The translations under genes were made by a program, and so were the position numbers. A stretch of 64,000 nucleotides of DNA from the NCBI GenBank assembly GCA_030425385.1, contig JAUIAH010000023.1, positions 1-64,000 on the forward strand. Direction: 5' to 3'. The notes beneath the pieces were generated by a model. That model saw nothing but the letters and a program-made list of their open reading frames with translations, ran no database searches and had not been told where the DNA came from. Positions 6,090 through 64,000 of this stretch are shown piece after piece. How positions within the stretch are numbered: position 1 is the stretch's first letter; every line of letters begins with the position of its first letter. Source of the stretch: Verrucomicrobiia bacterium. GTDB lineage: Bacteria > Verrucomicrobiota > Verrucomicrobiia > Verrucomicrobiales > DEV007.

Positions 6090-7859
6090 TTAGTTAGCGA
6101 AGATTTGGTCGGGCGTGGGAATGGCATCCTCATCGGCACTGACTTCTACTTCGGGTGTGGGTGTGGGTGCGGTTTCAGTGGGAACGGGCTTGGCAGAACG
6201 CCATTTATCGAGATTCACTTTGAGGGCTTTGTCCTTTAGCCAAAACGCCTCTCCCTCAGTTGACAGGATGCCCAAATCGGCGAGGAGGCCGAGCCGCACT
6301 TCAAGGTAGTCCACCAGGACCCCCGTGACGGCGTTCTGAGCATTAATGAGCGCATCTTGAGATTCATTCAAATCACGGAAGATCACCGTGCCCGCTTGCA
6401 GACGCAAGCGATTCCCCTCCACTCGGTTCTCGGCCAAGGCCACCGCATTGCTTTGAATCTGAAAACTTTGCCGCAGTTGCTCCAATTGGCGCAATTCCTG
6501 ATCGATCAGATTGCGCAATTGATCAAATGTCAGGCCGAGGCGACGGATAGCTGCTTCAAACTGAATCACCGTCGAGCGATATTGATTGCGTTCTTGGAGG
6601 CGATCCAGAGGGAGGTTGAGTTGGATGCCAACATTGGCTCTAACGTTATCGAAATCGAAGTCGGCGTAGTCCGTGGCACCTTCATCGTTGTCCAAACTAG
6701 CATCCGCAAAGATATTAAGATCGGCTTTGAGCCGGTCGGCGGCCAGAGCGACCTGGCGTTTGCTATCTTCGAAGCGATCCACTTCATTGAGCAGGGGCAA
6801 GCGATGCTCCAAGGCAATGCGGAAACTTTGTTCGCGGCTGAGATCGAGGGATTTCAATTCCAAGTCTCGCAGCTTCGTCATTTCGTCGTCGTTCAGACGC
6901 AAGTCGACGGTTTGGGGCATGCCCAAGGTGATCTTGAACCGATCGAGCGCATTGCGAAAGCGTGTGATGGAGTTGAGATAACTGTCCTTGGCTTGCAACT
7001 CGGCCTGCTCGGACTCGGCCACCTGTTCGGGACGGGCGCGGTCCACGGATCGTGCGCGAAGGTATTCGGTGAATCCTTTGCGGGAGAGGTAGTTATTGTA
7101 TTGGTTGTAGATGACGTCCTTGGCTTGCAAGAGCCGATAGTATTCAATGACGACATCCACGGCGAAAGTGTTCTGGAAGTGACTGAAATCACGGACACCA
7201 TAGAACACGTTGCGATGGGCTTGTTTGAGCCGTTCTCCGGCGATCTTGGAACCGGCACCACGAAGCAATGGCTGGAGGAGATTGAGGCTAATGACAGAGG
7301 CGGCGGAGCGTCGCGGGTCCCCGGTGTAGTAGCGCAAGAGATCATTGGCGATGCTCAAGCCGATGTCGGCACCGGTGATGAGGGCTTGGTCCACACCAAT
7401 GGTCGAATTCACGCGTCCGAGACGTTCGCCATCGCTGAGGCGTGATCCCGTGGCGCGGGAATTGGCGAACAGCTGGGGGAAGAACTGATGACGCTCGCCA
7501 GTGAGATTGAGAGCCGTGACGTAGAGAGACTCTTTCTCTGACTGGTAGTCACGGCTGTGTTTCACCGCATAGTCGAGGGCCTGATCGATGTTGAGTTCCT
7601 TCCGCTTGGCTGGACTGCGTTTATCGAGAATGGCCTGACTTGAGAGATCCTTTGGTTTCTTGTCGGAGAATTCTGTATCGATGGTGAAATCGTCAGAGGC
7701 TTCTCCGAAGATGTCTTTCTCGACCTGCTGCAGGATCTTGTAGACATCCTTATCGGCCTGGCGCCTATAAAAGCCAGTGGTACATCCAACCACTAGGGTT
7801 CCCACACTTAGCACTAACAATAATCGAATGGTTGGTGGGGCGCATTTGGTGGTGGGCAT
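6090..7859 (-). CDS. Outer-membrane efflux lipoprotein, TolC family
   Basis: 589 residues. The N-terminus carries a lipoprotein signal with lipobox LVVGC (Cys26). The body has long alpha-helical regions rich in Gln, Arg, Leu and Glu, including a repeated coiled-coil layout around 230-330 and 430-520, as in TolC/OprM duct proteins. It would form the outer-membrane channel for the adaptor, ATPase and permease encoded directly downstream. It starts 16 bases after the RsmA-Nudix gene, so the whole set down to 900 is probably one operon. The extra N-terminal region (30-110) and the Pro/Thr-rich acidic end vary in this family. Confidence 0.87.
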   Translation of the reverse strand: MPTTKCAPPTIRLLLVLSVGTLVVGCTTGFYRRQADKDVYKILQQVEKDIFGEASDDFTIDTEFSDKKPKDLSSQAILDKRSPAKRKELNIDQALDYAVKHSRDYQSEKESLYVTALNLTGERHQFFPQLFANSRATGSRLSDGERLGRVNSTIGVDQALITGADIGLSIANDLLRYYTGDPRRSAASVISLNLLQPLLRGAGSKIAGERLKQAHRNVFYGVRDFSHFQNTFAVDVVIEYYRLLQAKDVIYNQYNNYLSRKGFTEYLRARSVDRARPEQVAESEQAELQAKDSYLNSITRFRNALDRFKITLGMPQTVDLRLNDDEMTKLRDLELKSLDLSREQSFRIALEHRLPLLNEVDRFEDSKRQVALAADRLKADLNIFADASLDNDEGATDYADFDFDNVRANVGIQLNLPLDRLQERNQYRSTVIQFEAAIRRLGLTFDQLRNLIDQELRQLEQLRQSFQIQSNAVALAENRVEGNRLRLQAGTVIFRDLNESQDALINAQNAVTGVLVDYLEVRLGLLADLGILSTEGEAFWLKDKALKVNLDKWRSAKPVPTETAPTPTPEVEVSADEDAIPTPDQIFAN

Positions 7860-7875
7860 GGTTCTACTTCAATGC

Positions 7876-9237
7876 CTAGAGCGTGATTCCGTCGCGGTTT
7901 CCGCCAGATTTCTGATAGACGCGGAAGCACTCGATGAATCCGGAGGCGAAGTCTTGCGGGCGCTTCTCAATCCAGCGATCGACTATTTCCACTGGAAAGT
8001 AGGCGCCCGTCTCGACTTCTGCACAGGGATAGCGGAGGCGTTTGGGGGCGTCCACGCGGAAGAGGTGGACGTGCTCCCAGCCGGTGGCGGCTGTGGCTGG
8101 CAAGGTCGCGATCCATTCGGGTTCGCGTTCCCTGATGCCGAGTTCTTCTTCCAATTCGCGCACGACTGCCGAGGCGTATGATTCGCCCGCATCGAGATGA
8201 CCGGCGGCAGAAGAGTCCCAGACTCCAGGGTGGGCGTCCTTCAAATGCGAGCGTTTCTGCAGGAAGAGATCACCGGCTTTATTGAACGCAAAGACATGAA
8301 TGGCGCGGTGTCGCCAGCCGTTGGCATGCACCTCGCGGCGCGTGGCCTGACGCAGGACAACGTCGTTCTCATCGACGACGTCGAAGCATTCGTCGTCTTT
8401 CTGGGGGTTATCCTTGAGGGGATGATCGTCGACCAGGCGAGCCATGTGGATCCAGTCTTCGAGCGAGAGCTCTTCGGCGCGGGCTGTGGGCGGGATCTGC
8501 AAGGTCGCGCCTACCTGTTCCCAATCCACGCTCAGAGGCGCGAGGACATTCTTCAACTGCTTGCGCCGCTGAGAGAAGCCCTGACGGATCAGGCGATCGA
8601 AGGTATCGTGATCAAATATAGGGAGTTCCCCGGGGGCACGTCGCTCGAGCACAATGATGGAGGAATCCACCTGGGGACGTGGATAGAAAGCCGCGGGACC
8701 GATGGAGCGCAGCATCTTGGGACGCCAATAGGCCTGGATGCGGAGGGAAAAGGCGCCGTAGTCTTTGGTCCGGGGCTTGGCGACCACACGCTCGGCGACT
8801 TCTTTCTGCAGCATAAACACGGCCCTGGTGAACGGGCTGGGCGGCATGAGGTAGTGGATCATGATGTGACCGCCGCAAGAATAGGGGAGATTGCCAATCA
8901 GCTTGAGGGGCTGTTCTGGAAATAATGACCGGAAATCGTGCTTCACCGCATCTTCCGGAATGACGGTCACGCGGGGATCGCTCTCATAAGTCTTCGCAAG
9001 GTGCGCTGCCAAGCGTTGATCGTATTCGACCAACCAGAGATTCTCAGCTGCCTGGTGCAAGTGGCGCGTGAGGGCTCCTGTTCCAGGTCCGATCTCCACG
9101 GCGGATTCCCCTGGAGAAAGCTCCAATTGGCGGACAATCCATTGGGCCGACTGATCATCCGTGAGAAAGTTCTGACCGAGCTTACGGCTGGGTTGAACCC
9201 CGAGAGAATCCAGCAAGGAACGCAAGGCCGCTGACAT
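7876..9237 (-). CDS. rsmA: 16S rRNA dimethyladenosine transferase (RsmA/KsgA) fused to a Nudix hydrolase domain
   Basis: 453 residues against about 270 for ordinary RsmA. Residues 1-270 form the methyltransferase: QNFL near 22-25, the SAM-binding loop EIGPGTG (48-54), the catalytic motif NLPY (116-119) and the C-terminal helical domain with FSQRRKQLKN. Family knowledge: it dimethylates two adjacent adenines of helix 45 late in 30S assembly. Residues about 283-445 are a Nudix hydrolase with a complete box, GHLDAGE...REL-EEELGI (346-368), closest in pattern to the isopentenyl-diphosphate-isomerase-like/YfcD group. The two domains share one uninterrupted frame. It is the first gene of the efflux operon. 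The assignment of each half is firm; why they are fused is unknown. Confidence 0.92.
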   Translation of the reverse strand: MSAALRSLLDSLGVQPSRKLGQNFLTDDQSAQWIVRQLELSPGESAVEIGPGTGALTRHLHQAAENLWLVEYDQRLAAHLAKTYESDPRVTVIPEDAVKHDFRSLFPEQPLKLIGNLPYSCGGHIMIHYLMPPSPFTRAVFMLQKEVAERVVAKPRTKDYGAFSLRIQAYWRPKMLRSIGPAAFYPRPQVDSSIIVLERRAPGELPIFDHDTFDRLIRQGFSQRRKQLKNVLAPLSVDWEQVGATLQIPPTARAEELSLEDWIHMARLVDDHPLKDNPQKDDECFDVVDENDVVLRQATRREVHANGWRHRAIHVFAFNKAGDLFLQKRSHLKDAHPGVWDSSAAGHLDAGESYASAVVRELEEELGIREREPEWIATLPATAATGWEHVHLFRVDAPKRLRYPCAEVETGAYFPVEIVDRWIEKRPQDFASGFIECFRVYQKSGGNRDGITL

Positions 9238-9434: not shown

Positions 9435-9464
9435 TTGATTTATCATAAAATCTTGTTTGATAAT
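9435..9464 (+). promoter_or_regulatory. Candidate housekeeping promoter for the PEP-CTERM gene
   Basis: TTGATT at 9435-9440 and GATAAT at 9459-9464 are separated by 18 bases within a markedly AT-rich stretch. Initiation near 9471 would leave a leader of about 58 bases before the ATG at 9529. The match to a sigma-70 consensus is by eye only. The facing operon that starts at 9237 must have its own promoter in the same 290-base gap, but I could not pick a clear one. Confidence 0.45.
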
Positions 9465-9528
9465 CGACCTGATCCCTTTAGAATCCCTAATATCTACTCC
9501 AACGATAAACCAAACTGACCTCTCACAA

Positions 9529-10239
9529 ATGACAACGATCCCCCGATTCGCACTGATTGCTGGTCTTATGGGAATTACAGCGCTCGCTTCTCACGCAGGA
9601 GTGACGCTTGCCCCGACAATTACAATCGCTCTTGATGATTTCCGAGATGGCCTGGGGACGGACCCGCTTCAGGTGTTTGTCCCGACCACTTCGGCTACGA
9701 CCTCGGAGACGCTGACCGTGCCCGGTTTGGTTGGAGCCACCCGCGACACCACGGTTTCGCATCTCGGCGGAGACGCGCGTGTTCGGGCGACGATTTCTGG
9801 GAATACGCTAAGTTTCAGTTCAGATGCGAACACGCATGGCATGCTGACTCTCGAGTATGCGTTCCCAACGCCCATCGATTTCACCCAAGCAGGTGGCCAC
9901 GCGTTTCTCATTGATGTGGTTTCCTCGGACAACCCACCCGTGGCAGGCGATTTCGCCTTAGCGGCTGCCAGCGTTGGTGGGACCTTGAGCGGCCCTGCCA
10001 TGACGCCGTTCGTCGTCGGCGCGGTTGAGGTGGCTTTCTCTGATGCTGCCTTCGCGGGAGTCGACTTTTCTGAGGTCACCAACGTCACGCTCACTTATAA
10101 TGTGGATCCTGAGTTCGATGGATCGATCCAGATGATCGGTATCAGCGCTCCCGGAGCGGCAGGCGTTCCCGAGCCCAGCGGTGCGGTGGCATTGCTCACG
10201 GTTCTTGTGGGTGCCATGGCGCGTCGCCGCCGTGCCTGA
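9529..10239 (+). CDS. PEP-CTERM sorted secreted protein
   Basis: 236 residues from the ATG at 9529, which puts a normal signal peptide at the N-terminus (about residues 4-23, ending in ASHAG). The C-terminus has the tripartite PEP-CTERM sorting signal: VPEPS, a hydrophobic helix (AVALLTVLVGAMA) and a basic end (RRRRA). Such proteins are processed by an exosortase and are typically linked to exopolysaccharide. The body is beta-rich with many Thr, Val and Asp, with no recognised enzymatic motif. It is monocistronic, with its own promoter upstream and a strong terminator downstream. An in-frame GTG/TTG further upstream would destroy the signal peptide and was not used. Confidence 0.85.
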   Translation: MTTIPRFALIAGLMGITALASHAGVTLAPTITIALDDFRDGLGTDPLQVFVPTTSATTSETLTVPGLVGATRDTTVSHLGGDARVRATISGNTLSFSSDANTHGMLTLEYAFPTPIDFTQAGGHAFLIDVVSSDNPPVAGDFALAAASVGGTLSGPAMTPFVVGAVEVAFSDAAFAGVDFSEVTNVTLTYNVDPEFDGSIQMIGISAPGAAGVPEPSGAVALLTVLVGAMARRRRA

Positions 10240-10272
10240 TCCAGCACCTAGCATTCTTTCGTTTCTATTTGG

Positions 10273-10303
10273 AAAAGGCACCTCGGTTGAGGTGCCTTTT
10301 CTC
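10273..10303 (+). terminator. Rho-independent terminator
   Basis: A perfect 12-bp inverted repeat (AAAAGGCACCTC at 10273-10284 with GAGGTGCCTTTT at 10289-10300) encloses a GGTT loop and ends in a T run. It lies 34 bases after the PEP-CTERM stop. The A-tract on the left arm means it could also stop minus-strand transcription. Confidence 0.9.
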
Positions 10304-10393
10304 GTTGTTACAAGCCGCTACACAAATGGGCTTGTCTCCCATGGGGAGATTCCTAGCTTCCGGCAACACGCCATCTCATCCTCTTCTTCTGCT

Positions 10394-11725
10394 ATGAATA
10401 TGCGCTACGTCATTGGACTTCTCATCACCGCGGGAGCGTCGTTCGGGATCGGGTATGCGCTGAGGCCAGCTCCGGAGGTTGTTGATGGGTCACAGCCTGT
10501 TGCGCCTGCGGCGTCGCTCGTTCCGGCCCCCATGCAGTCGGCGGCGGACAAGCAAGCGGTGGCGGAACAGATGGGCGCGTTGAGTGATGCTGAAAGCTTC
10601 GTTGCCAAATATCTCCGGAATGGGGAAATCAGCGCGAAAGCGATGGAGCGAGCCATGAGTGAACTGTTAGCCGAATCCGACCCCATCAAGATGAATCAAA
10701 TGATGGCGGAGTTGTTAGGCCAACTCACCCCAGAGAATGCACCGGTGGCGATGCAAGCATTGCAGGGGAACGTTTCGCGTGATCCCAGTCAATTCTACCT
10801 CTCGGCTCTCTTCGCCAACGCCTGGGGAAGGATCGATGGCGAGAAAGCGTTAGACTACATGAAGGATGCGGATGGGATGTTGGGCAGGATGGGCTCCGCG
10901 TCAGCTCTCTCAGGATGGGCGTTGGATGAGCCTGATCAAGCCATGGCTTGGCTCGAGTCGCAGGAAGACACGCCCCAGAAGATGATCTATACGGCGGGGC
11001 TCATCAACGGACTGGCGAAGAGCGATCCTAGCAGTGCGACGGAGTATTTGCTTAGCGTGCCAGAGAACAATCAGATGCGTTCGCGTTACATTGACATCAT
11101 TGCCAATGAACAGATGAAGAAAGGGATCGATGAAGCCACACGCTGGGCGGATGGTCTTTCGGATGCCTCTCTCAAGGGCGATGCCTTCACTGATCTCGCC
11201 ACGCGCTACACGCAGCAGGACCCTGAGCAGGCGGGCAGATGGATCGAGGATCGTGCGACCGAACCGTGGGCGCAGGATGCGGTGCGCGAGGTCGCGGATG
11301 AGTGGGCCGAGCTCGATCCTGCCGCCGCGGTGGAATGGGCCGGGGGCCTACCAGAACAATCACAGGGCGATGCCATGGCCGCGGCCTTTGAGGAATGGAC
11401 GGAGTCCGATCCCACCACGGCGAGCACGTATCTAGCAGAGATGCCAGATTCGCCCACCAAGGATCACGCTATCGTTGGGTTCACAGAGCGATTGGTCCGC
11501 GAGGATCCAGAGGCTGCCATGACATGGGCATCCACGATCAATAATGCGGACCTGCGGACCGAGGCCCTTACGGACGCGGGGCAAGCGTGGTATCGTCAAG
11601 ATCAGGAGGCGGCTTCGGCCTGGCTTTCGACCAGCGACTTGCCTGCAGACGTCCAAGAGAAGGTCACGGCTCCACCCTCACGGGAACGCAATTTCATGGA
11701 CGCATTTCGAGGCTTCCGAAACTAA
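10394..11725 (+). CDS. Membrane-anchored protein with 32-residue helical repeats
   Basis: 443 residues from ATG 10394 (a second ATG lies at 10400). A short cytoplasmic start precedes one hydrophobic helix (about residues 5-24, GLLITAGASFGIGYAL), then a Pro/Ala linker. The remainder is an alpha-solenoid with a period near 32 residues, each unit reading roughly DP-x-x-A-x-x-W-x-x-x-(L/M) followed about 20 residues later by W; the last five units begin DPEQAGRW, DPAAAVEW, DPTTASTY, DPEAAMTW and DQEAASAW. No catalytic motif is seen. The same pattern forms the C-terminal part of the sigma-factor fusion at 34920-37346, suggesting related protein-binding modules. Function unknown. It is followed 41 bases later by another secreted protein. 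Confidence 0.75.
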   Translation: MNMRYVIGLLITAGASFGIGYALRPAPEVVDGSQPVAPAASLVPAPMQSAADKQAVAEQMGALSDAESFVAKYLRNGEISAKAMERAMSELLAESDPIKMNQMMAELLGQLTPENAPVAMQALQGNVSRDPSQFYLSALFANAWGRIDGEKALDYMKDADGMLGRMGSASALSGWALDEPDQAMAWLESQEDTPQKMIYTAGLINGLAKSDPSSATEYLLSVPENNQMRSRYIDIIANEQMKKGIDEATRWADGLSDASLKGDAFTDLATRYTQQDPEQAGRWIEDRATEPWAQDAVREVADEWAELDPAAAVEWAGGLPEQSQGDAMAAAFEEWTESDPTTASTYLAEMPDSPTKDHAIVGFTERLVREDPEAAMTWASTINNADLRTEALTDAGQAWYRQDQEAASAWLSTSDLPADVQEKVTAPPSRERNFMDAFRGFRN

Positions 11726-34919: not shown

Positions 34920-37346
34920 CTACTCATCGTCTGCCAGAGGGATCTGAGAGAGCACATTCAAACGTGTTTCAAGCTCGATCAAAGATTGGTCATGGAATGG
35001 ACCAGCGAGAAGCTTCGGGACAACGAAGCTATCGAGCTTTGTCAAAAGGGACTCACGAGCTGCCCCTATTGATTGACGATAATTCGAGAGTTCCGATCGA
35101 CTTAGAAGCTCCCTCGCCCAAAGATTCGCACGGTCAGCACCCTTGAGGGAGCGATACCTCGTTCGCTCTATTAGCCTCAAAACGGCTTCATCTCGATTTG
35201 CGCCCGGAGGAAGCGACCTAACGATAGCATAGGCGGATGAAGGCTTGAACGCTGCAATGAGGTCGATCTCAGCTAGATTTATGCTTTGATAGAGTTCAGA
35301 TTGGATTTCAAGATTCTGTTTCAACTCCGCAAGCCCCGAGCGTCCCTCAACGACAAAGACACCCCAGGCGAAGGCCTCAGCGGCCTGCGCATCGAGGGGA
35401 CTCTGGGCTTCTAGCAACAGCAATCCCCGATTCCTATCCATACGGCCAAACTGATAGAGAGCTTGACGTCTAACAGCAGAGCACTGCTCTGGGTTGACAA
35501 GCGTTTCTGACCAAGAGTTCGCCTTCTGCGGAGGCAACGCTGCAGCGACCCTTTCGAATAGGGACGGCTCATAAAGCACATTGGCGTGTTGCGTTAGCCA
35601 TTTCTGAGGCTCCTCAGGAGGCTCACTCTCAAGCCAGCTGACAAGCGCAGGTTCATAGGCATCCTGACACTCCGAGAGCGACTTAAGCGCCCAATTCAAC
35701 GCATCGCGAGGAGCACTCTTCGCCCAACCATAAAGGATAGATTCTGCTTGTTGCTTGGTGACGGAAGGCAAGCGTTCCGTCCAGGAAACAGCTTCAGCAG
35801 GATGTTCAGAAGCCCATTGTTCAAGAATCTCCGATGTGAGCCTGCTCGATAGCTTGTCTGACTCTAAATTCTCTAGCCAAGTTACTATCTGATCTGGAAC
35901 CTGCTGGTAAAGCGTTGGAATGGTTAGCGAAAGTAAGGTCTCCATCGTCTCCCCACGCTGATGGCGGAAGGAGATGTCATGCCCACGCTCAGAGACCCAT
36001 TCCCTACCTTGATCGATCTCCCAATCTCCCAGCAATGACAAGAGTTCAAATGGCGGGAGTTTCAATAGCGCTTCCGATAGGATCTCTACCGTTTCTCTAC
36101 GGACGAGTCCACGATTGGTGAGCCACAGGTAGGCAGTATCCAAGTCATTCACCACCAATTGTCGGAGTAAAGAGTCATGGGCTAGACGCTCCGCAGCATC
36201 AGTTCGTGGTAGATTTCTGATCCACGATTCGGCAGCCTTTGCATCTCGTCGCCACCATTCATGAATTGGAACATCTAGCAAACTTCCGAAGAGGGCTTGC
36301 CGATCATCACCGGTGGATTGGAGCCGGATCAGTTCGATCACCGCCCTCGCATTGCGCTGAGGATCCAGACCAGACCATCGAGAAAAGAGATCTGAAAGGT
36401 ATTGATCATCGGTTCTGCCTTTTAGGTAGGCGGTGAGCCGATCCAAGGCCCGTTCCCTTTCATGGTCAGGCAATAAGTAGATTCCTTCAATGTCATCGAT
36501 AGCGAGGCTGTGCGTACTTGTGATAGACTGCCGTTTCGAAAGGATAGATGAGCGTTGAGTCTGCGGGGTGCCCTGCGCATTGGCAGAAACGTGGTGATTA
36601 GAGTAGAAGGAGGCGGCAACGATCAGTCCTCCAGCAGCTAGGATACCGATTGAGATCATGGGCGATGAAACCAGCGCCCCCATGAAGCCAGCTGCGGGAA
36701 TCGGCTTCCGCAAGGCCTGCCTGGTGATTTCCTGACCAAGTTCCGCGGGTAGCCCGGCTCCTTGGGCAGAGAAATGGGGAGCAGCCAGCAAGCTTGCCGT
36801 CGAAGTGACACCGCGTGCTCCTAGCAAGCCTTGAAGGCGTTCCAAAGCCCGCCGCACTCGCTTCTGGGCGGTTTCCTTACGGATTCCCAAGGCAGTAGCC
36901 ACTTGCTCAAGACTTCGGCCTTCGAAGTAGCGGAGAAAGAGTGCTTCCTGATCTCGCTTGCTCAATTCTCCAATCGAGGTGCAAAGCACTGGAAAGAGAT
37001 CATGGGACGCCTCTGAGTTTCCCTCATTGGTAGAACCGTGAGCGTTTCCCATCTCGACAGCCGTGTGCTCTCGCTTGCGGCGTCTGGATTCGCGACGCAT
37101 CATCAATGCGATTTGCCGGCGGGTAGTGGAGAAGACCCAAGCCGATACCGAGCGGATCGCCTTCCCGCGGTCTCCCAATCCTGCGAGGGTGGAGAACACA
37201 ATCTGGCAGACGTCTTGAGCTTGCTGGTGATCACCCAAGCGTTGGTAAGCAAAGCGATAAGCCATCGGCAAGCACGCTTCGACGAGGAGAGCGAATGCGG
37301 CTTCATCTCCTGAGATGTAGGCCTGCAAGTAATCTTCATGCGTCAT
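34920..37346 (-). CDS. ECF sigma factor fused to a membrane segment and an alpha-solenoid
   Basis: 808 residues in one uninterrupted frame. Residues 1-90 are sigma region 2 (DEAAFALLVEACLPMAYRFAY, QDVCQIVFSTLA, WVFSTTRRQIA) and about 125-175 are region 4 (LSKRDQEALFLRYFEGRSLEQVA and the HTH). After a linker comes one transmembrane helix (229-249, ISIGILAAGGLIVAASF), then about 550 residues of helical repeats with a 30-32-residue period (for example HPAEAVSWTERLP, APRDALNWALKSL). With the sigma part cytoplasmic, the solenoid should face the periplasm. Its start is two bases after the stop of the secreted-protein gene upstream, so the two are co-transcribed. There is no separate anti-sigma gene; the fused part may replace it. 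Confidence 0.85.
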   Translation of the reverse strand: MTHEDYLQAYISGDEAAFALLVEACLPMAYRFAYQRLGDHQQAQDVCQIVFSTLAGLGDRGKAIRSVSAWVFSTTRRQIALMMRRESRRRKREHTAVEMGNAHGSTNEGNSEASHDLFPVLCTSIGELSKRDQEALFLRYFEGRSLEQVATALGIRKETAQKRVRRALERLQGLLGARGVTSTASLLAAPHFSAQGAGLPAELGQEITRQALRKPIPAAGFMGALVSSPMISIGILAAGGLIVAASFYSNHHVSANAQGTPQTQRSSILSKRQSITSTHSLAIDDIEGIYLLPDHERERALDRLTAYLKGRTDDQYLSDLFSRWSGLDPQRNARAVIELIRLQSTGDDRQALFGSLLDVPIHEWWRRDAKAAESWIRNLPRTDAAERLAHDSLLRQLVVNDLDTAYLWLTNRGLVRRETVEILSEALLKLPPFELLSLLGDWEIDQGREWVSERGHDISFRHQRGETMETLLSLTIPTLYQQVPDQIVTWLENLESDKLSSRLTSEILEQWASEHPAEAVSWTERLPSVTKQQAESILYGWAKSAPRDALNWALKSLSECQDAYEPALVSWLESEPPEEPQKWLTQHANVLYEPSLFERVAAALPPQKANSWSETLVNPEQCSAVRRQALYQFGRMDRNRGLLLLEAQSPLDAQAAEAFAWGVFVVEGRSGLAELKQNLEIQSELYQSINLAEIDLIAAFKPSSAYAIVRSLPPGANRDEAVLRLIERTRYRSLKGADRANLWARELLSRSELSNYRQSIGAARESLLTKLDSFVVPKLLAGPFHDQSLIELETRLNVLSQIPLADDE

Positions 37347-37348
37347 CG

Positions 37349-40186
37349 CTAGTCTCTAAGTGAAATGGATAGTCGATACATCGCGATAGGTCGCTGTGAA
37401 ATCGATTGGTGCGCTCGCAATGTTAATCGATGCAGCCCCCCACCCAAGGCCTCGTCTGCGATCAAGTCGAAATCGTCGTTCACATTGAACCAATCGATAC
37501 CGTCAAACGAACCAAGTAACCCTACTCGGACGCCAAAGATATCTTGACGCAGGGGGAATGTTAGTTCCAGGTGAGTTTCCTCATCTTCATGATAAATGCT
37601 CGTTTCAAGTGATGGGATCTCCGTGGCAGTCTTTGGGCTTGTGCCCATGATGAACTCTTCTAAATCGCTTGCACCATCTCTATCAGAGTCGTGAAGCTCT
37701 TGTTCCTCGGTTGGGAGGTCTAGCTTGTCCTCAAACGTTTCAAGCCAGTCCTCGAAGGCGACTTGATAAGGCGCTTTCTCAAGATCGAAGCCTAGCTGGA
37801 TCGTACCTATCTCCCCATGGATCACGGACTCACCCAGGACTGTCTCAAGTGCCATAGCCGTGACGGTGACCGGTAGCCTCACGGCCCCCCAGCTATCCCA
37901 GCCTGTGGCAGGGCGGTCTATTTCGTATGTGATCAGCGCACGTTGTCCATCGCCCTCAAGGGTCCAATCAACGAAATGCGCTGGAGCCAATCCGGGGTAG
38001 ACTTTGGTTGTCGGCGTGTCAATGGCCCGCCAAGGAGTCTGCGCCGTTCGGGCTATGCCAATACGAACGCCACTATCATTGCCACGCTGCGCAGTAGCTT
38101 GCAAGAACGCAGCAGAGAGCGGTGTCTCCGTCGAGAGGTAGCGAATCTGGAATCGATGGGTCAGCGAATTTGGATCGACTATGCCTTCGCCATGGATGAG
38201 TTCTGCAGAGATGGCAGGCCCTCGCTCATCAAACGCCTGTCGCGAGTAGAGGATAGCCTCCTCAAGATGCCCGCCCTGCGCATCGATCAGCCGCCCCGCA
38301 CGGGTTAGGATGCGAAAGTCGCTTGGCCATCCACCTTGGGGACGCTGAAATTCGTAGCTCACCGTTAAGTCGCGATCATTGTTAGACAGGCGCGTGCGAA
38401 TGACGGTAGGAGTGAGAGCGCTATTCTCGCCTGGTTTGGGATGGTAACGAGGGCCATAGAGGTGCCCGTTGCGCTTCTCAAAGTCGACCCCCGTCCAGTC
38501 TTGCAACTGTGGATCCTCTGGGTGTGGAGGCGAGTCGGACAGGAAAGCTTCCCACGCGATCAAAGGCATCCAGGCTGGGCGGGCCCGGAGAGCGTTCTGA
38601 TCGAGAGTCCCAACTGGTAAATCGGGAACAGTCACAGGACAATCTAAGGGAGTTGGTATCCATACCATCTCGTGATCGCCAGAGGCTTCCCAACCCACGG
38701 GGTAGGGAAGCTCGCGATCCTTCATCACCGGAAGAAGATCTGCCGGACTCGTTGATCCGGGTAAAAGCAACAGGTGGTCATCACGCAGACTCCCCGTCAG
38801 AATCGGCATTTCACTGGTATAGACCACATGAGCCCTAAAAGCCGTTGTATCAGGTTGAGGAGGCGAGTTCGATAGGAGGCTTGCGCGAATGTTAGGTTTC
38901 AATGCCAGACTGGTAATAGGTCCGATTCGTTGTGGACCATTTCCAACCCCAGACTGATCAGCGACAACGTTGGCATCCAATAGCAACAGTCGCGGCGCTA
39001 AGCCCCGATCCCATCCATAGCGTGGACGGTGCATCCGATAGACAACCTGCGCCGATCGCCCATCGATAGACGGTGTCACTGAGACGATTTCGAGATAGTG
39101 ATAGAAAGCGCCAGGATCCTGAGATAGCTCTCCGATAGCGAACACATCGCGGTCATCGAAGCTGAGCAAATCCAGCGGAGCGCGTGTGCTTTCGAAGATA
39201 AGCGTGATGTCAGTCCATTCGGTCGATGGATCTATCAAGGGCAAGTCCTCACCTAGCCTCACAAGGATGCGATCCTCTGCTCTGATGCTTGGCAAAGGCG
39301 TAGGACCAGACCAAAGCAGCCGTCCATTCTGATCAACGGGCCAGAAATCCCCAGGTCGTGGTAATTGGTAGTCGACATCGATGGCCCCTGACTCCCCAGG
39401 AACAGCCTCCACGGAAAGAATGGTGGCTCGAATACGCTCGGGAATCAGGTTTGGATCAGCGATAGGGTTTCCTAGTGGATCCATGCACACATTCCAAGGT
39501 GGAACCGCATAGTAGTTTCCTAGAGGATCCACACCCAGACTTCCATCAAACAGGCTCAGATAGTGTCGGTTGCCCAACGAATCTTGAGTGCGAACCCAGT
39601 TGGCTTGCTGATCCTGTGAGGCGAGGGTGATGTCGATGAGAGAGTCCGCTTCCACAGGGGCAAGATCGTGCCGGCGGTAGCGCATTCGAAACTGTAGGAC
39701 CTCATCCTGCAAAGTGACGAACATCGGTCCTGTGTAGGATCCTTCTAACAATGGTCGATGCAAGGGGATTGAGGGGAGTTCGACTTCAGCTACGGAAGTA
39801 TTGGAGCGATCAACAATCGCACCAGCAGCCATACGAATAGGAATCACATCGCCAGTGAGAATACTCCACCCTTGTTCGGGAGGAAAGACCTCATAGGTCA
39901 CCAGAGCCGAGAAACTCCGCAACGAATAGTCTACCAGAAAGACTTCAAGCGGAGAACCTGAGCCAATAATGAGATCATCGTCTCCAAATGAGGCCGGATG
40001 CAGCGGCGTATCGCTAGTATACGAGACTTGAAGCCTATAGCTCAGCGGTGGAGAAGAGAGGTCAATCGTTGCTGGATGAGTACTAACAGTGATATCGCCT
40101 CGCAGCAGGGAGAAACTAAGAAGGGAGATGGTAGCGACAAGGATGGTAACAGAATCAGCTCGGGAAGAGGATTTCATGGGCGTCAT
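37349..40186 (-). CDS. Large secreted repeat protein with a calcium-binding motif
   Basis: 945 residues with a signal peptide (about 13-31, LVATISLLSFSLLRG; a second in-frame Met lies at residue 4). The body has several diverged beta-rich units with recurring patterns such as YRLQVSYTSDTPL, RAHVVYTSEMPI and RFQIRYLSTETPL, each followed by VTYE(V/F/I)xxPxxGW. This suggests at least five Ig-like or cadherin-like domains. Near the end DSDRDGASDLEEFIMGTSP is a thrombospondin-type calcium motif common in Verrucomicrobiota surface proteins. No enzyme motif is seen. It is the first gene of a pair with the sigma-solenoid fusion. Confidence 0.75.
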   Translation of the reverse strand: MTPMKSSSRADSVTILVATISLLSFSLLRGDITVSTHPATIDLSSPPLSYRLQVSYTSDTPLHPASFGDDDLIIGSGSPLEVFLVDYSLRSFSALVTYEVFPPEQGWSILTGDVIPIRMAAGAIVDRSNTSVAEVELPSIPLHRPLLEGSYTGPMFVTLQDEVLQFRMRYRRHDLAPVEADSLIDITLASQDQQANWVRTQDSLGNRHYLSLFDGSLGVDPLGNYYAVPPWNVCMDPLGNPIADPNLIPERIRATILSVEAVPGESGAIDVDYQLPRPGDFWPVDQNGRLLWSGPTPLPSIRAEDRILVRLGEDLPLIDPSTEWTDITLIFESTRAPLDLLSFDDRDVFAIGELSQDPGAFYHYLEIVSVTPSIDGRSAQVVYRMHRPRYGWDRGLAPRLLLLDANVVADQSGVGNGPQRIGPITSLALKPNIRASLLSNSPPQPDTTAFRAHVVYTSEMPILTGSLRDDHLLLLPGSTSPADLLPVMKDRELPYPVGWEASGDHEMVWIPTPLDCPVTVPDLPVGTLDQNALRARPAWMPLIAWEAFLSDSPPHPEDPQLQDWTGVDFEKRNGHLYGPRYHPKPGENSALTPTVIRTRLSNNDRDLTVSYEFQRPQGGWPSDFRILTRAGRLIDAQGGHLEEAILYSRQAFDERGPAISAELIHGEGIVDPNSLTHRFQIRYLSTETPLSAAFLQATAQRGNDSGVRIGIARTAQTPWRAIDTPTTKVYPGLAPAHFVDWTLEGDGQRALITYEIDRPATGWDSWGAVRLPVTVTAMALETVLGESVIHGEIGTIQLGFDLEKAPYQVAFEDWLETFEDKLDLPTEEQELHDSDRDGASDLEEFIMGTSPKTATEIPSLETSIYHEDEETHLELTFPLRQDIFGVRVGLLGSFDGIDWFNVNDDFDLIADEALGGGLHRLTLRAHQSISQRPIAMYRLSISLRD

Positions 40187-63332: not shown

Positions 63333-63517
63333 GGCTGATGTAATTTCCATAATTTAAAGAGAAAGGCAATGGCCATCGTATCGCTGATGAAATTAATTGC
63401 AGCGATGAGAATCAGCCCGTTTCAAGCCAAAGCCTAAGAAATTCAGAATAGCTGTCGGGAATCCGCTCCCTCGCGAAATGGGAGAGAGTAGAGTGTGACC
63501 CCATTCTGGTGACAGCC

Positions 63518-64000
63518 ATGCAGAAAGCCCTGACCATTCCTCCCGAGAATCGAGCGCCCGTCGCTGACGATCATGAACTCTTGCGACGCTACGTCCAGGC
63601 GTCAGACGAGAGTGCTTTTCGAGACTTGGTGCGTCGGCATGAAGGGATGGTCGAGTCCGCGGCGAAGCGAGTCCTGAGAAATCAGGATCTCGTCCATGAG
63701 GTGTCTCAGAATGTCTTTGCGTTGTTGGCTCGTAAGGCTCCTCATCTCCCTCACAAGGTTACCATCTCAGGTTGGCTCTTCAAGGCGGCCCGATTTGAAG
63801 CCCTGAGGCTCGGGCGAAATGATGCCACGCGGCATCGCCACCTGCGCGCATATGCGATCGATTCGGATTCGCCGGACGTTCCGGAAGGCTTGCAGGACGC
63901 TTTCCGTGAATCATTGGATGAAGCGTTGATGCGACTCGGGGATCGTGACAGGGAAGCCATTCTCCTGCGGTTCTATGAAGAGATGCCCTATCGAGAATTG
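63518..64000 (+). CDS. ECF sigma factor (partial, runs off the window)
   Basis: An ATG at 63518 starts 161 codons open to the edge. Region 2 is recognisable (DESAFRDLVRRHEGMVESAA, NQDLVHEVSQNVFALLARKA, ISGWLFKAARFEALRL), and region 4 begins at the end (LGDRDREAILLRFYEEMPYREL). Verrucomicrobial sigma factors of this type (AFRDLV, QNVFA.LARKAP) are often continued by a membrane helix and a large C-terminal domain; whether this one is cannot be seen. It should carry its own promoter in the 185 bases upstream. Confidence 0.9.
   Translation, partial: MQKALTIPPENRAPVADDHELLRRYVQASDESAFRDLVRRHEGMVESAAKRVLRNQDLVHEVSQNVFALLARKAPHLPHKVTISGWLFKAARFEALRLGRNDATRHRHLRAYAIDSDSPDVPEGLQDAFRESLDEALMRLGDRDREAILLRFYEEMPYREL

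Follow-up and report, generated by a model that had tools for sequence, protein, structure and literature searches.

An ECF sigma factor fused to a predicted membrane helix and an alpha-solenoid, encoded behind a conserved Ig-repeat gene in a verrucomicrobial bacterium

The anti-sigma part of IutY of Pseudomonas putida is of the FecR type, like that of cell-surface signalling systems. IutY (ECF243) combines a cytosolic sigma part and a periplasmic anti-sigma part in one chain that is processed by Prc and RseP, and its periplasmic region is an RseP substrate once cut back to about 50 residues (PMC5411451). ECF48, ECF52 and ECF53 have C-terminal membrane helices and an extension, with proteolytic activation proposed, and in ECF42 (TPR) and ECF57 (WD40) a repeat-type C-terminal extension is thought to work by protein contact (PMC8999054).

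We analysed a window of 64,000 nucleotides, that is, the whole stretch of DNA considered here. An ATG frame of 808 codons runs without interruption exactly from 34920 to 37346 on the minus strand, which the earlier note had left unstated, and the plus strand of this segment contains many stops. The encoded protein and its parts are the following.

34920-37346, minus strand: fusion of an ECF sigma factor, linker, predicted membrane helix and alpha-solenoid, class A, 808 aa (frame, Pfam, NCBIfam, homologues, AF2)
37080-37286, minus strand: sigma region 2, residues 21-89 (Pfam PF04542)
36834-36974, minus strand: sigma region 4, residues 125-171 (Pfam PF08281)
36663-36833, minus strand: linker, residues 172-228, with the family signature ...RG......L........P..L.......A (alignment of 22 fusions)
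36600-36662, minus strand: predicted membrane helix, residues 229-249 (hydropathy; low-confidence AF2 helix)
36498-36599, minus strand: stretch between helix and solenoid, residues 250-283, a candidate first-cleavage site (pLDDT below 50)
34923-36497, minus strand: alpha-solenoid, residues 284-808, with a helix pair roughly every 25-34 residues (AF2; PPR/HEAT-type matches generic)

Frame, Pfam and NCBIfam agreed on the uninterrupted sigma-bearing protein described in the earlier note. Pfam detected Sigma70_r2 at residues 21-89 (5e-10) and Sigma70_r4_2 at residues 125-171 (2e-9), TIGR02937 matched residues 17-173 (1e-23), and the best 25 of 77 NCBIfam matches all fell inside residues 2-190. The protein has regions 2 and 4 but lacks region 3, as ECF sigma factors (sigma70 group 4) do. 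The AF2 model was matched to AlgU over residues 1-179 (8z6g_B; Z 8.5, rmsd 11.2 over 133) and to SigE over residues 12-177 (9m9e_F; Z 9.6, rmsd 18.7 over 112). A profile of the fusion family retrieved 50 PDB sequences, all sigma factors or parts of them, with the ECF ones on top. Neither a FecR nor a zinc-finger anti-sigma domain appeared among the nine Pfam rows at E<=1 or the best 25 of 77 NCBIfam matches. The same Pfam search gave no TPR or WD40 match, and WD40 is excluded for the extension because the AF2 model is all-helical. The linker presumably resembles that of planctomycetal WD40-ECF proteins. Full-length homologues with 28-33% identity are encoded by open frames on further contigs and in a second genome, indicating that the architecture is more than chance; the search within the own genome (G000) scored 17 of 146 candidates.

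Beyond the helix, about 550 residues of 30-32-residue repeats had been proposed. Helix pairs are present, over about 520 residues and with a spacing of 25-34; the AF2 helices, mostly paired, start at 498, 528, 561, 594, 619, 653, 684 and 716. Block pLDDT was 80-92 for residues 601-750 and mostly 43-87 for residues 284-600, in a whole-protein model with a mean pLDDT of 63.9 and a pTM of 0.44, from 3 sequences. The single Pfam match to the C-terminal half, Metal_resist, was below cut-off (E 0.22, 12.1 bits vs 29.2), and the solenoid profile matched no PDB sequence at E<=1. Foldseek and VIA yielded PPR, HEAT and importin-type matches (best Z 10.0), with TM-scores of at most 0.20 among the best 50 matches listed. 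We claim no family for the solenoid because these structure matches are generic to helical repeats. Profile searches also identified stand-alone relatives, one of them in the window.

10181-11725, plus strand: stand-alone 514-aa frame related to the solenoid repeats (profile relatives)

By eye, this frame probably starts near residue 72, ahead of a hydrophobic segment. Because ORFs were called mechanically (ATG/GTG start, longest-first), the starts of this frame, L088|5 and L074|76 are probably too early. An N-terminal hydrophobic export segment was found in 27 of 31 stand-alone relatives, compared with 114 of 277 background genes. No Pfam model above cut-off was found in this analysis for these exported relatives, which form an abundant family.

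The predicted membrane helix was expected at residues 229-249. By hydropathy, residues 225-243 form a hydrophobic segment (Kyte-Doolittle 2.0), and AF2 placed a helix at 229-249; both match that expectation, the helix lying in a low-confidence stretch (pLDDT about 33-37), and pLDDT was below 50 across all of 181-284. The segment exceeded its own shuffles (0.015), and the flanking lysines and arginines (3 inside, 0 outside) favour the expected topology. Across the family, 36 of 40 fusions have a hydrophobic segment C-terminal to the sigma domain (19-residue mean of at least 1.5), L071|19 being left out of this test as a stop splits its sigma part; the segment of L066, of class A, is weak (1.33). 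Nine of the 40 segments beat shuffled versions of the alanine-rich region they lie in (p<0.05). Of the 40 fusions, 8 had more lysine and arginine on the inner flank of the helix and 23 on the outer, and net charge favoured N-in in 21 and opposed it in 13. Charge bias was dropped as topology support, this family-wide result being mixed. The residues beyond the helix would lie outside the cytoplasm, as the relatives with exported sensors suggest, and the sigma factor is very probably tethered to the membrane with an external sensor.

Two bases upstream lies the 945-residue gene for which secretion had been proposed, and its product has a hydrophobic N-terminal segment.

37349-40186, minus strand: 945-aa exported Ig-repeat protein, conserved partner (frame, hydropathy, profile search)
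40103-40159, minus strand: its N-terminal hydrophobic export segment, residues 10-28 (hydropathy)
39815-40039, minus strand: Ig-like repeat, residues 50-124 (repeat HMM)
38966-39211, minus strand: Ig-like repeat, residues 326-407 (repeat HMM)
37847-38158, minus strand: Ig-like repeat, residues 677-780 (repeat HMM)
37352-37774, minus strand: C-terminal part, residues 805-945, with acidic D.D.DG motif and conserved end domain (alignment, genome search)

The repeat HMM was built from the same partner ORFs that it subsequently matched. AF2 modelled residues 318-428 as all-beta (pLDDT 82, pTM 0.74). The 945-aa protein had no Pfam match, and the repeat fold had none in the PDB at E<=0.001, the best being the S-layer protein SbsC at 0.23; the label Ig-like is thus a putative one, given from strand layout. 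We take the D.D.DG motif to be of calcium type. The end domain matches many further long frames of the phylum (82 of 423 candidates scored). The next gene upstream encodes 560 aa and a convergent gene of 1093 aa lies downstream of the fusion; by eye, we assume them to be IlvD-like and PutA-like, respectively. As the earlier note had stated, no anti-sigma gene was recognised among these three neighbours, and a zf-HC2 search of the genome (150 of 153 candidates scored) gave 2 matches, 0 of them on this contig.

The proposal that the upstream secreted protein is a partner was strengthened by a survey of homologues. Of the 9 class A fusions whose upstream DNA is readable, 8 have the Ig-repeat gene immediately before them (7 of 8 excluding the window), L112 and L113 being called class A from the sigma part, with the remainder cut by contig ends. 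The divergence of the fusions tracks that of their partners (Mantel r = 0.70, a value reached by 60 of 40,320 permutations). A partner profile (A3), built from 6 upstream genes picked by position, gave 11 strong matches (82 of 423 candidates scored); 6 of the 11 were its own position-chosen rows, and the link is therefore weaker from the Ig-protein side. Of the 5 newly found Ig genes, 2 precede a class A-like sigma frame, 2 do not and 1 is at a contig end, and a broken class A copy in genome G002 lacks the Ig gene. Among 38 genomes searched (37 of 193 candidates scored), strong class A matches were confined to one genus. Three ECF-type promoter patterns were sought upstream of 8 partner genes and none was common. 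For the 945-aa protein as ligand or regulator of the fusion, we consider the chances evenly balanced.

The fusion is not isolated. We counted 25 ECF fusions in this genome, on many contigs, including L071|19 with a sigma part split by an in-frame stop; ECF frames shorter than 350 aa and the multi-helix L084|37, of another type, were not called fusions. One more begins in the window.

63509-64000, plus strand: second ECF fusion, truncated at the end of the window (complete in L080, 504 aa)

Across Verrucomicrobiota, the sigma-linker-helix module is met again with differing exported domains, namely alpha-solenoid, TonB_C, alpha-2-macroglobulin and unknown ones. In 18 fusions from outside the order, Pfam found TonB_C in 4 (L133, L134, L144, L145) and alpha-2-macroglobulin in 2 (L147, L148), with no named C-terminal domain in the other 12. 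The module is also present in a MAG (L101, L102) and in the single-contig genomes G137, G140, G148 and G189; as the phylum search scored at most 18 candidates per genome, fusion counts for genomes other than G000 are minimum values. Where other fusions have a linked exported gene downstream, it frequently encodes a relative of the sensor that lacks the sigma part: at E<1e-3, 16 of 38 own pairs matched compared with 194 of 1406 non-own pairs, the 38 ORFs including some weak cases that are short or lack an export segment. In most solenoid pairs, the own downstream partner is not the best match. The one-protein signalling device proposed earlier thus stands as a single chain of ECF domain, predicted membrane segment and solenoid, but it looks like a two-gene system, is one of 25 fusions and belongs to a modular family spread over the phylum. 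The literature listings searched gave no description of Verrucomicrobial ECF-membrane-sensor fusions, which does not imply absence from print.

Like IutY, the fusion has an ECF domain and a regulatory part, here predicted to be membrane-bound, in one polypeptide, in a genome that encodes homologues of RseP (C55, 218.8 bits) and Prc (C25, 286.5 bits), each above cut-off. It differs in having no recognised anti-sigma domain, a 520-aa solenoid as its external part and an exported Ig-repeat protein as its partner, whereas IutY carries the anti-sigma part of cell-surface signalling and works with a siderophore receptor. With its C-terminal extension and predicted membrane helix it resembles ECF48, ECF52 (SCO4117) and ECF53 of Actinobacteria, but neither their zinc-finger (anti-sigma-like) domain nor the carbohydrate-binding domain of SCO4117 was found in it. 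The repeat-type C-terminal extension recalls ECF42 and ECF57, from which the fusion is set apart by the lack of a TPR or WD40 match, by the hydrophobic segment before the extension and by the export segments of most stand-alone relatives. The RpoE-RseA pair possibly follows the same logic, with sigma held at the membrane, but no separate anti-sigma gene was recognised beside the fusion. In our best reading, the fusion would work like IutY without a recognised anti-sigma domain.

The sigma domain would be kept at the inner membrane face, inactive or away from core polymerase, by its own helix and linker, while the periplasmic solenoid would monitor the secreted Ig-repeat protein, be it its presence, folding, export, assembly or a carried ligand. 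A change at the solenoid may then make residues 250-283 accessible to a Prc- or DegS-like protease of the periplasm, an RseP-like site-2 protease would cut the stub, and the freed sigma fragment would turn on its regulon. Topology, the contact between solenoid and Ig protein, proteolytic release and target genes are all inferred here. We regard release by regulated proteolysis as having about an even prospect of being right, and the explanation as a whole as tentative, its chance falling slightly short of even.

ToxR/CadC-type activators work while membrane-tethered, and the sigma factor might likewise act uncleaved, with the solenoid altering its orientation or oligomeric state. The anatomy would be identical, cleavage of the fusion is itself an inferred step, partner and sensor are co-encoded, and the excess of sigma-less sensor relatives among own downstream pairs would suit hetero-oligomer switching. 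We nevertheless think this unlikely, given that the studied membrane fusion IutY is freed by proteolysis (PMC5411451), that RseP and Prc are encoded in the genome and that a tethered holoenzyme would presumably get to fewer promoters. It is still less probable that the hydrophobic stretch does not span the membrane and that the helical repeats control a cytosolic ECF factor by protein contact. The mixed charge bias, the many segments not above shuffles of their alanine-rich region, the low-confidence AF2 helix and the ECF42/ECF57 precedents (PMC8999054) agree with such an arrangement; the export segments of the stand-alone solenoid relatives and of the 945-aa partner, and the presence of TonB_C and alpha-2-macroglobulin on the identical module, argue against it.

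The Ig-repeat gene may also be a client or regulon member rather than the signal, the fusion sensing envelope damage, polysaccharide or another cell and the shared operon reflecting autoregulation. We find this plausible, if on the doubtful side: two of the 11 Ig genes are not followed by a fusion, other fusions built alike have different neighbours and the solenoid/Ig-protein contact is postulated, but the pair is kept at nearly all readable class A loci and has co-diverged. That two genes were joined by an error of gene calling or of assembly, the latter raised in the earlier note as a possible refutation, has a negligible chance of being correct. The L071 paralogue with an in-frame stop in its sigma part and the broken G002 copy would fit it, but the 25 fusions on many contigs, the homologues in other genomes and the module in the MAG and in single-contig genomes rule it out.

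Verrucomicrobiota may hold a large class of ECF sigma factors that are modular, transmembrane and one-component, in which a conserved sigma-linker-helix unit carries interchangeable periplasmic sensors (solenoid, TonB_C, alpha-2-macroglobulin, others), often with a co-encoded exported partner (a secreted repeat protein or a sigma-less sensor relative), so that two dozen envelope-sensing channels could work in parallel in one genome with no anti-sigma factors; we would put the case for this as no stronger or weaker than the case against. If true, bacteria across a phylum use single-chain envelope-to-RNA polymerase sensors in place of sigma/anti-sigma pairs. Interchangeable sensors, with TonB_C and alpha-2-macroglobulin as two known types, would make the signal sensed by the sigma factor directly testable, the sigma-linker-helix unit could become a biosensor scaffold, and the abundant exported solenoid family would gain a candidate function.

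The window holds a fusion of an ECF sigma factor, a linker, a hydrophobic segment and a putative C-terminal sensor in one chain, preceded by the gene of an exported protein, here called the partner.

34920-37346, minus strand: ECF sigma-solenoid fusion with a predicted membrane helix, 808 codons, single frame
37349-40186, minus strand: partner, 945-aa Ig-repeat protein

The ECF sigma factor was located at residues 17-173 (TIGR02937, 1e-23), and Pfam regions 2 and 4 also matched. An AlphaFold model, for which the window protein and two named homologues were the input, had a mean pLDDT of 63.9 and a pTM of 0.44. Residues 284-808, the solenoid, were predicted to be all-helical, mostly as helix pairs with starts approximately 25 to 34 residues apart, and block pLDDT was 80-92 for residues 601-750. 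A hydrophobic segment found by hydropathy (225-243) coincides with a predicted helix at 229-249, within a stretch (181-284) of pLDDT below 50. VIA-align matched the N-terminal part to SigE (9m9e_F; Z 9.6, rmsd 18.7) and AlgU (8z6g_B; Z 8.5, rmsd 11.2), while VIA-align and Foldseek matched the rest of the model only to generic helical-repeat proteins. The domain searches and the model bear out the anatomy proposed in the earlier note, namely, a sigma factor, a putative membrane helix and helical repeats, to which we add the minus strand.

When the window's genome (8.0 Mb, 74 contigs) was searched with residues 1-190, 39 matches were found, and the top 24 of them sit in open frames of 489-893 aa. 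We counted 25 fusions of 369-889 aa in 25 regions of this genome plus the window, including one whose sigma part is broken by a stop: in this paralogue (L071:8069-10336), an in-frame stop inside the sigma domain leaves 101 + 640 aa. TIGR02937 had 113 matches in the genome, 85 of them above the family cut-off. Proteins closely related to the window protein along the entire C-terminal half (class A) are present there in four full copies, in the window and regions L061, L062 and L066. A second genome, G003, holds further copies (L086, L087, L088, L089 and L114), several of them cut by contig ends, as well as two class A sigma parts only (L112, L113), and a third, G002, has a broken copy. No C-terminal domain was named above cut-off in 10 further fusions (nine from the window's genome, and L099); a TPR match in L079 was below cut-off. 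Elsewhere in this genome, in L084 below 7460 (contig C55 near 232000-240000), the translated motif FNPRPPLGRRL is repeated, which we take to be the signature of a CRISPR array, and next to these repeats lies an ECF-like frame in which approximately six hydrophobic segments are found.

The partner gene stops 2 bases upstream of the fusion. Its product starts with a hydrophobic segment and has five matches to an Ig-like repeat, three of them near full length. Its C-terminal region carries an acidic D.D.DG motif and a conserved terminal domain, and many other long frames in the phylum match this region as well. Among ORFs from the window plus 40 fetched regions, every phmmer match of the partner other than itself lay immediately upstream of a class A fusion (in L088, L062, L087 and L066, and as two pieces in L061). 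The L061 copy (6575-8302) is split by one in-frame stop into 402 + 170 aa. Of 13 partner ORFs, 12 contain the Ig-like repeat, with 37 copies in all. The repeat profile, built from partner ORFs that it later matches, detected these 12 ORFs alone in the fetched regions. A model of one repeat, based on nine repeats from three proteins, was all beta (pLDDT 82, pTM 0.74), with no significant match in the PDB.

Upstream DNA could be read for 9 class A copies, and the partner lies directly upstream of 8 of them (7 of 8 excluding the window), L112 and L113 being counted as class A by their sigma part, as contig ends cut the remainder. Among these copies, only the broken one in G002 lacks the partner. 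The pairing looks softer from the partner side. The C-terminal 206 residues of the partner had 11 strong matches in 38 genomes, eight of them directly followed by a class A-like fusion, two without a fusion behind (contig C25 of the window's genome and C172 of G002) and one at a contig end (C515 of G003). Six of the eight fusion-linked matches were rows of the search profile, and only 2 of the five found anew have a fusion next. Pairwise identities of sigma domains and partners correlate over eight pairs (Mantel r 0.70, reached by 60 of 40,320 permutations). Together, the conserved pairing and the co-divergence are the best evidence that fusion and partner work together. No shared ECF-type promoter was detected in a search ahead of the eight partner genes.

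In the window's genome, 12 of the 25 fusions are followed by a protein with solenoid similarity (E≤1e-5), and in six cases the two genes overlap by 4 bases. A close same-strand downstream ORF was found for 38 of 56 fusions, and it resembled the C-terminal part of its own fusion at E<1e-3 in 16 of these 38, compared with 194 of 1,406 mismatched pairs. In many cases, the downstream partner is therefore related to the sensor but lacks a sigma part, for more than one sensor type, and the Ig-repeat partner of the window thus represents one of two pairing modes. The own partner was the best match of all in L136, L139 and L143 but not in most solenoid pairs. In L136, the fusion and the gene downstream of it both look solenoid-like: the solenoid profile detects the downstream gene, whose similarity to the fusion reaches 1.8e-28. 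Loci with sigma-less sensor relatives downstream were seen among L061-L083 and L133-L146.

A profile of the sigma factor, linker and helix, made from 22 fusions, was run on 145 genomes of the phylum, where up to 18 candidates were scored in each genome. Among the matches listed, those above 140 bits reach model position 236-265, in frames of 431-2319 aa, and a bit-score gap separates them from the next tier (≤137 bits), whose matches mostly stop around position 180, in frames close to 200 aa long. Fusions of this module are present in at least seven genomes of family f9 (same taxonomic class), with at least one each in f4 (same order), f22, f24, f26 and f31. Their C-terminal parts vary. Among 18 fusions from outside the order, Pfam identified TonB_C in four (L133, L134, L144, L145) and alpha-2-macroglobulin domains (A2M, MG2, bMG10) in two, and named no C-terminal domain in 12. 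The next gene downstream belongs to one family in L133, L144 and L145 (phmmer 1e-20 to 1e-23). In the two alpha-2-macroglobulin fusions, the same linker and hydrophobic segment form the joint.

L147:2210-8965: ECF sigma factor and alpha-2-macroglobulin in one frame, 2251 aa
L148:2853-9803: ECF sigma factor and alpha-2-macroglobulin in one frame, 2316 aa

TonB_C and alpha-2-macroglobulin are periplasmic or exported domains, which supports an external C terminus of the module. Among stand-alone solenoid relatives (at least 250 aa, deduplicated), 27 of 31 start with a hydrophobic export segment, versus 114 of 277 other genes of the same regions. The relative within the window (10181-11725) falls among the four misses, because its mechanically called start lies too far upstream; a hydrophobic segment can be made out by eye after the probable start. 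Repeats of 33-35 residues (W..DP..A..W...LP) are also visible by eye in this protein, and the small protein adjoining it (9457-10239) appears to end in a PEP-CTERM-like sorting tail. Four solenoid-repeat genes, two per strand, are clustered in L120:7730-14524. The charge test gave a mixed picture: over 40 fusions, the K+R bias around the helix favored an internal N terminus in 8 and opposed it in 23, net charge favored it in 21 and opposed it in 13, and the hydrophobic segment beat shuffles of its own alanine-rich region in only 9. The window protein passed both tests (K+R 3 inside, 0 outside; shuffle p 0.015). We consider the C-terminal part very probably external, given that TonB_C and alpha-2-macroglobulin domains are fused to the module and that relatives of the solenoid are exported.

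Among proteins already studied, the closest is Pseudomonas putida IutY, a membrane-bound single chain of sigma and anti-sigma parts processed by Prc and RseP (PMC5411451, PMC8999054). The window's genome contains RseP-like and Prc-like protease genes above curated cut-offs, with matches to the M50 family as well, and has few zinc-finger anti-sigma domains (two zf-HC2 matches, 150 of 153 candidates scored). The IutY precedent, the protease genes and the rarity of zf-HC2 lead us to favor a mechanism in which the sigma domain would be tethered to the membrane and then freed by regulated proteolysis, with the solenoid monitoring what condition the secreted Ig-repeat protein is in. The data establish the anatomy, the gene pairing, the co-divergence and the presence of the proteases, whereas we infer the contact, the cleavage, the topology and the target promoters.

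ECF sigma factors with a regulatory extension, and others with a membrane extension and proteolysis, are already known in general. A review (PMC8999054) lists no fewer than 26 ECF groups that have extensions, of which 15 are unstudied, and PMC8567305 describes WD40-type ECF extensions in Planctomycetes. We found no membrane-sensor ECF fusions reported for Verrucomicrobiota in the literature searched, whose coverage did not extend to key papers. The chances seem evenly balanced that the fusions described here make up a modular, phylum-wide class of membrane-sensor ECF sigma factors in Verrucomicrobiota.
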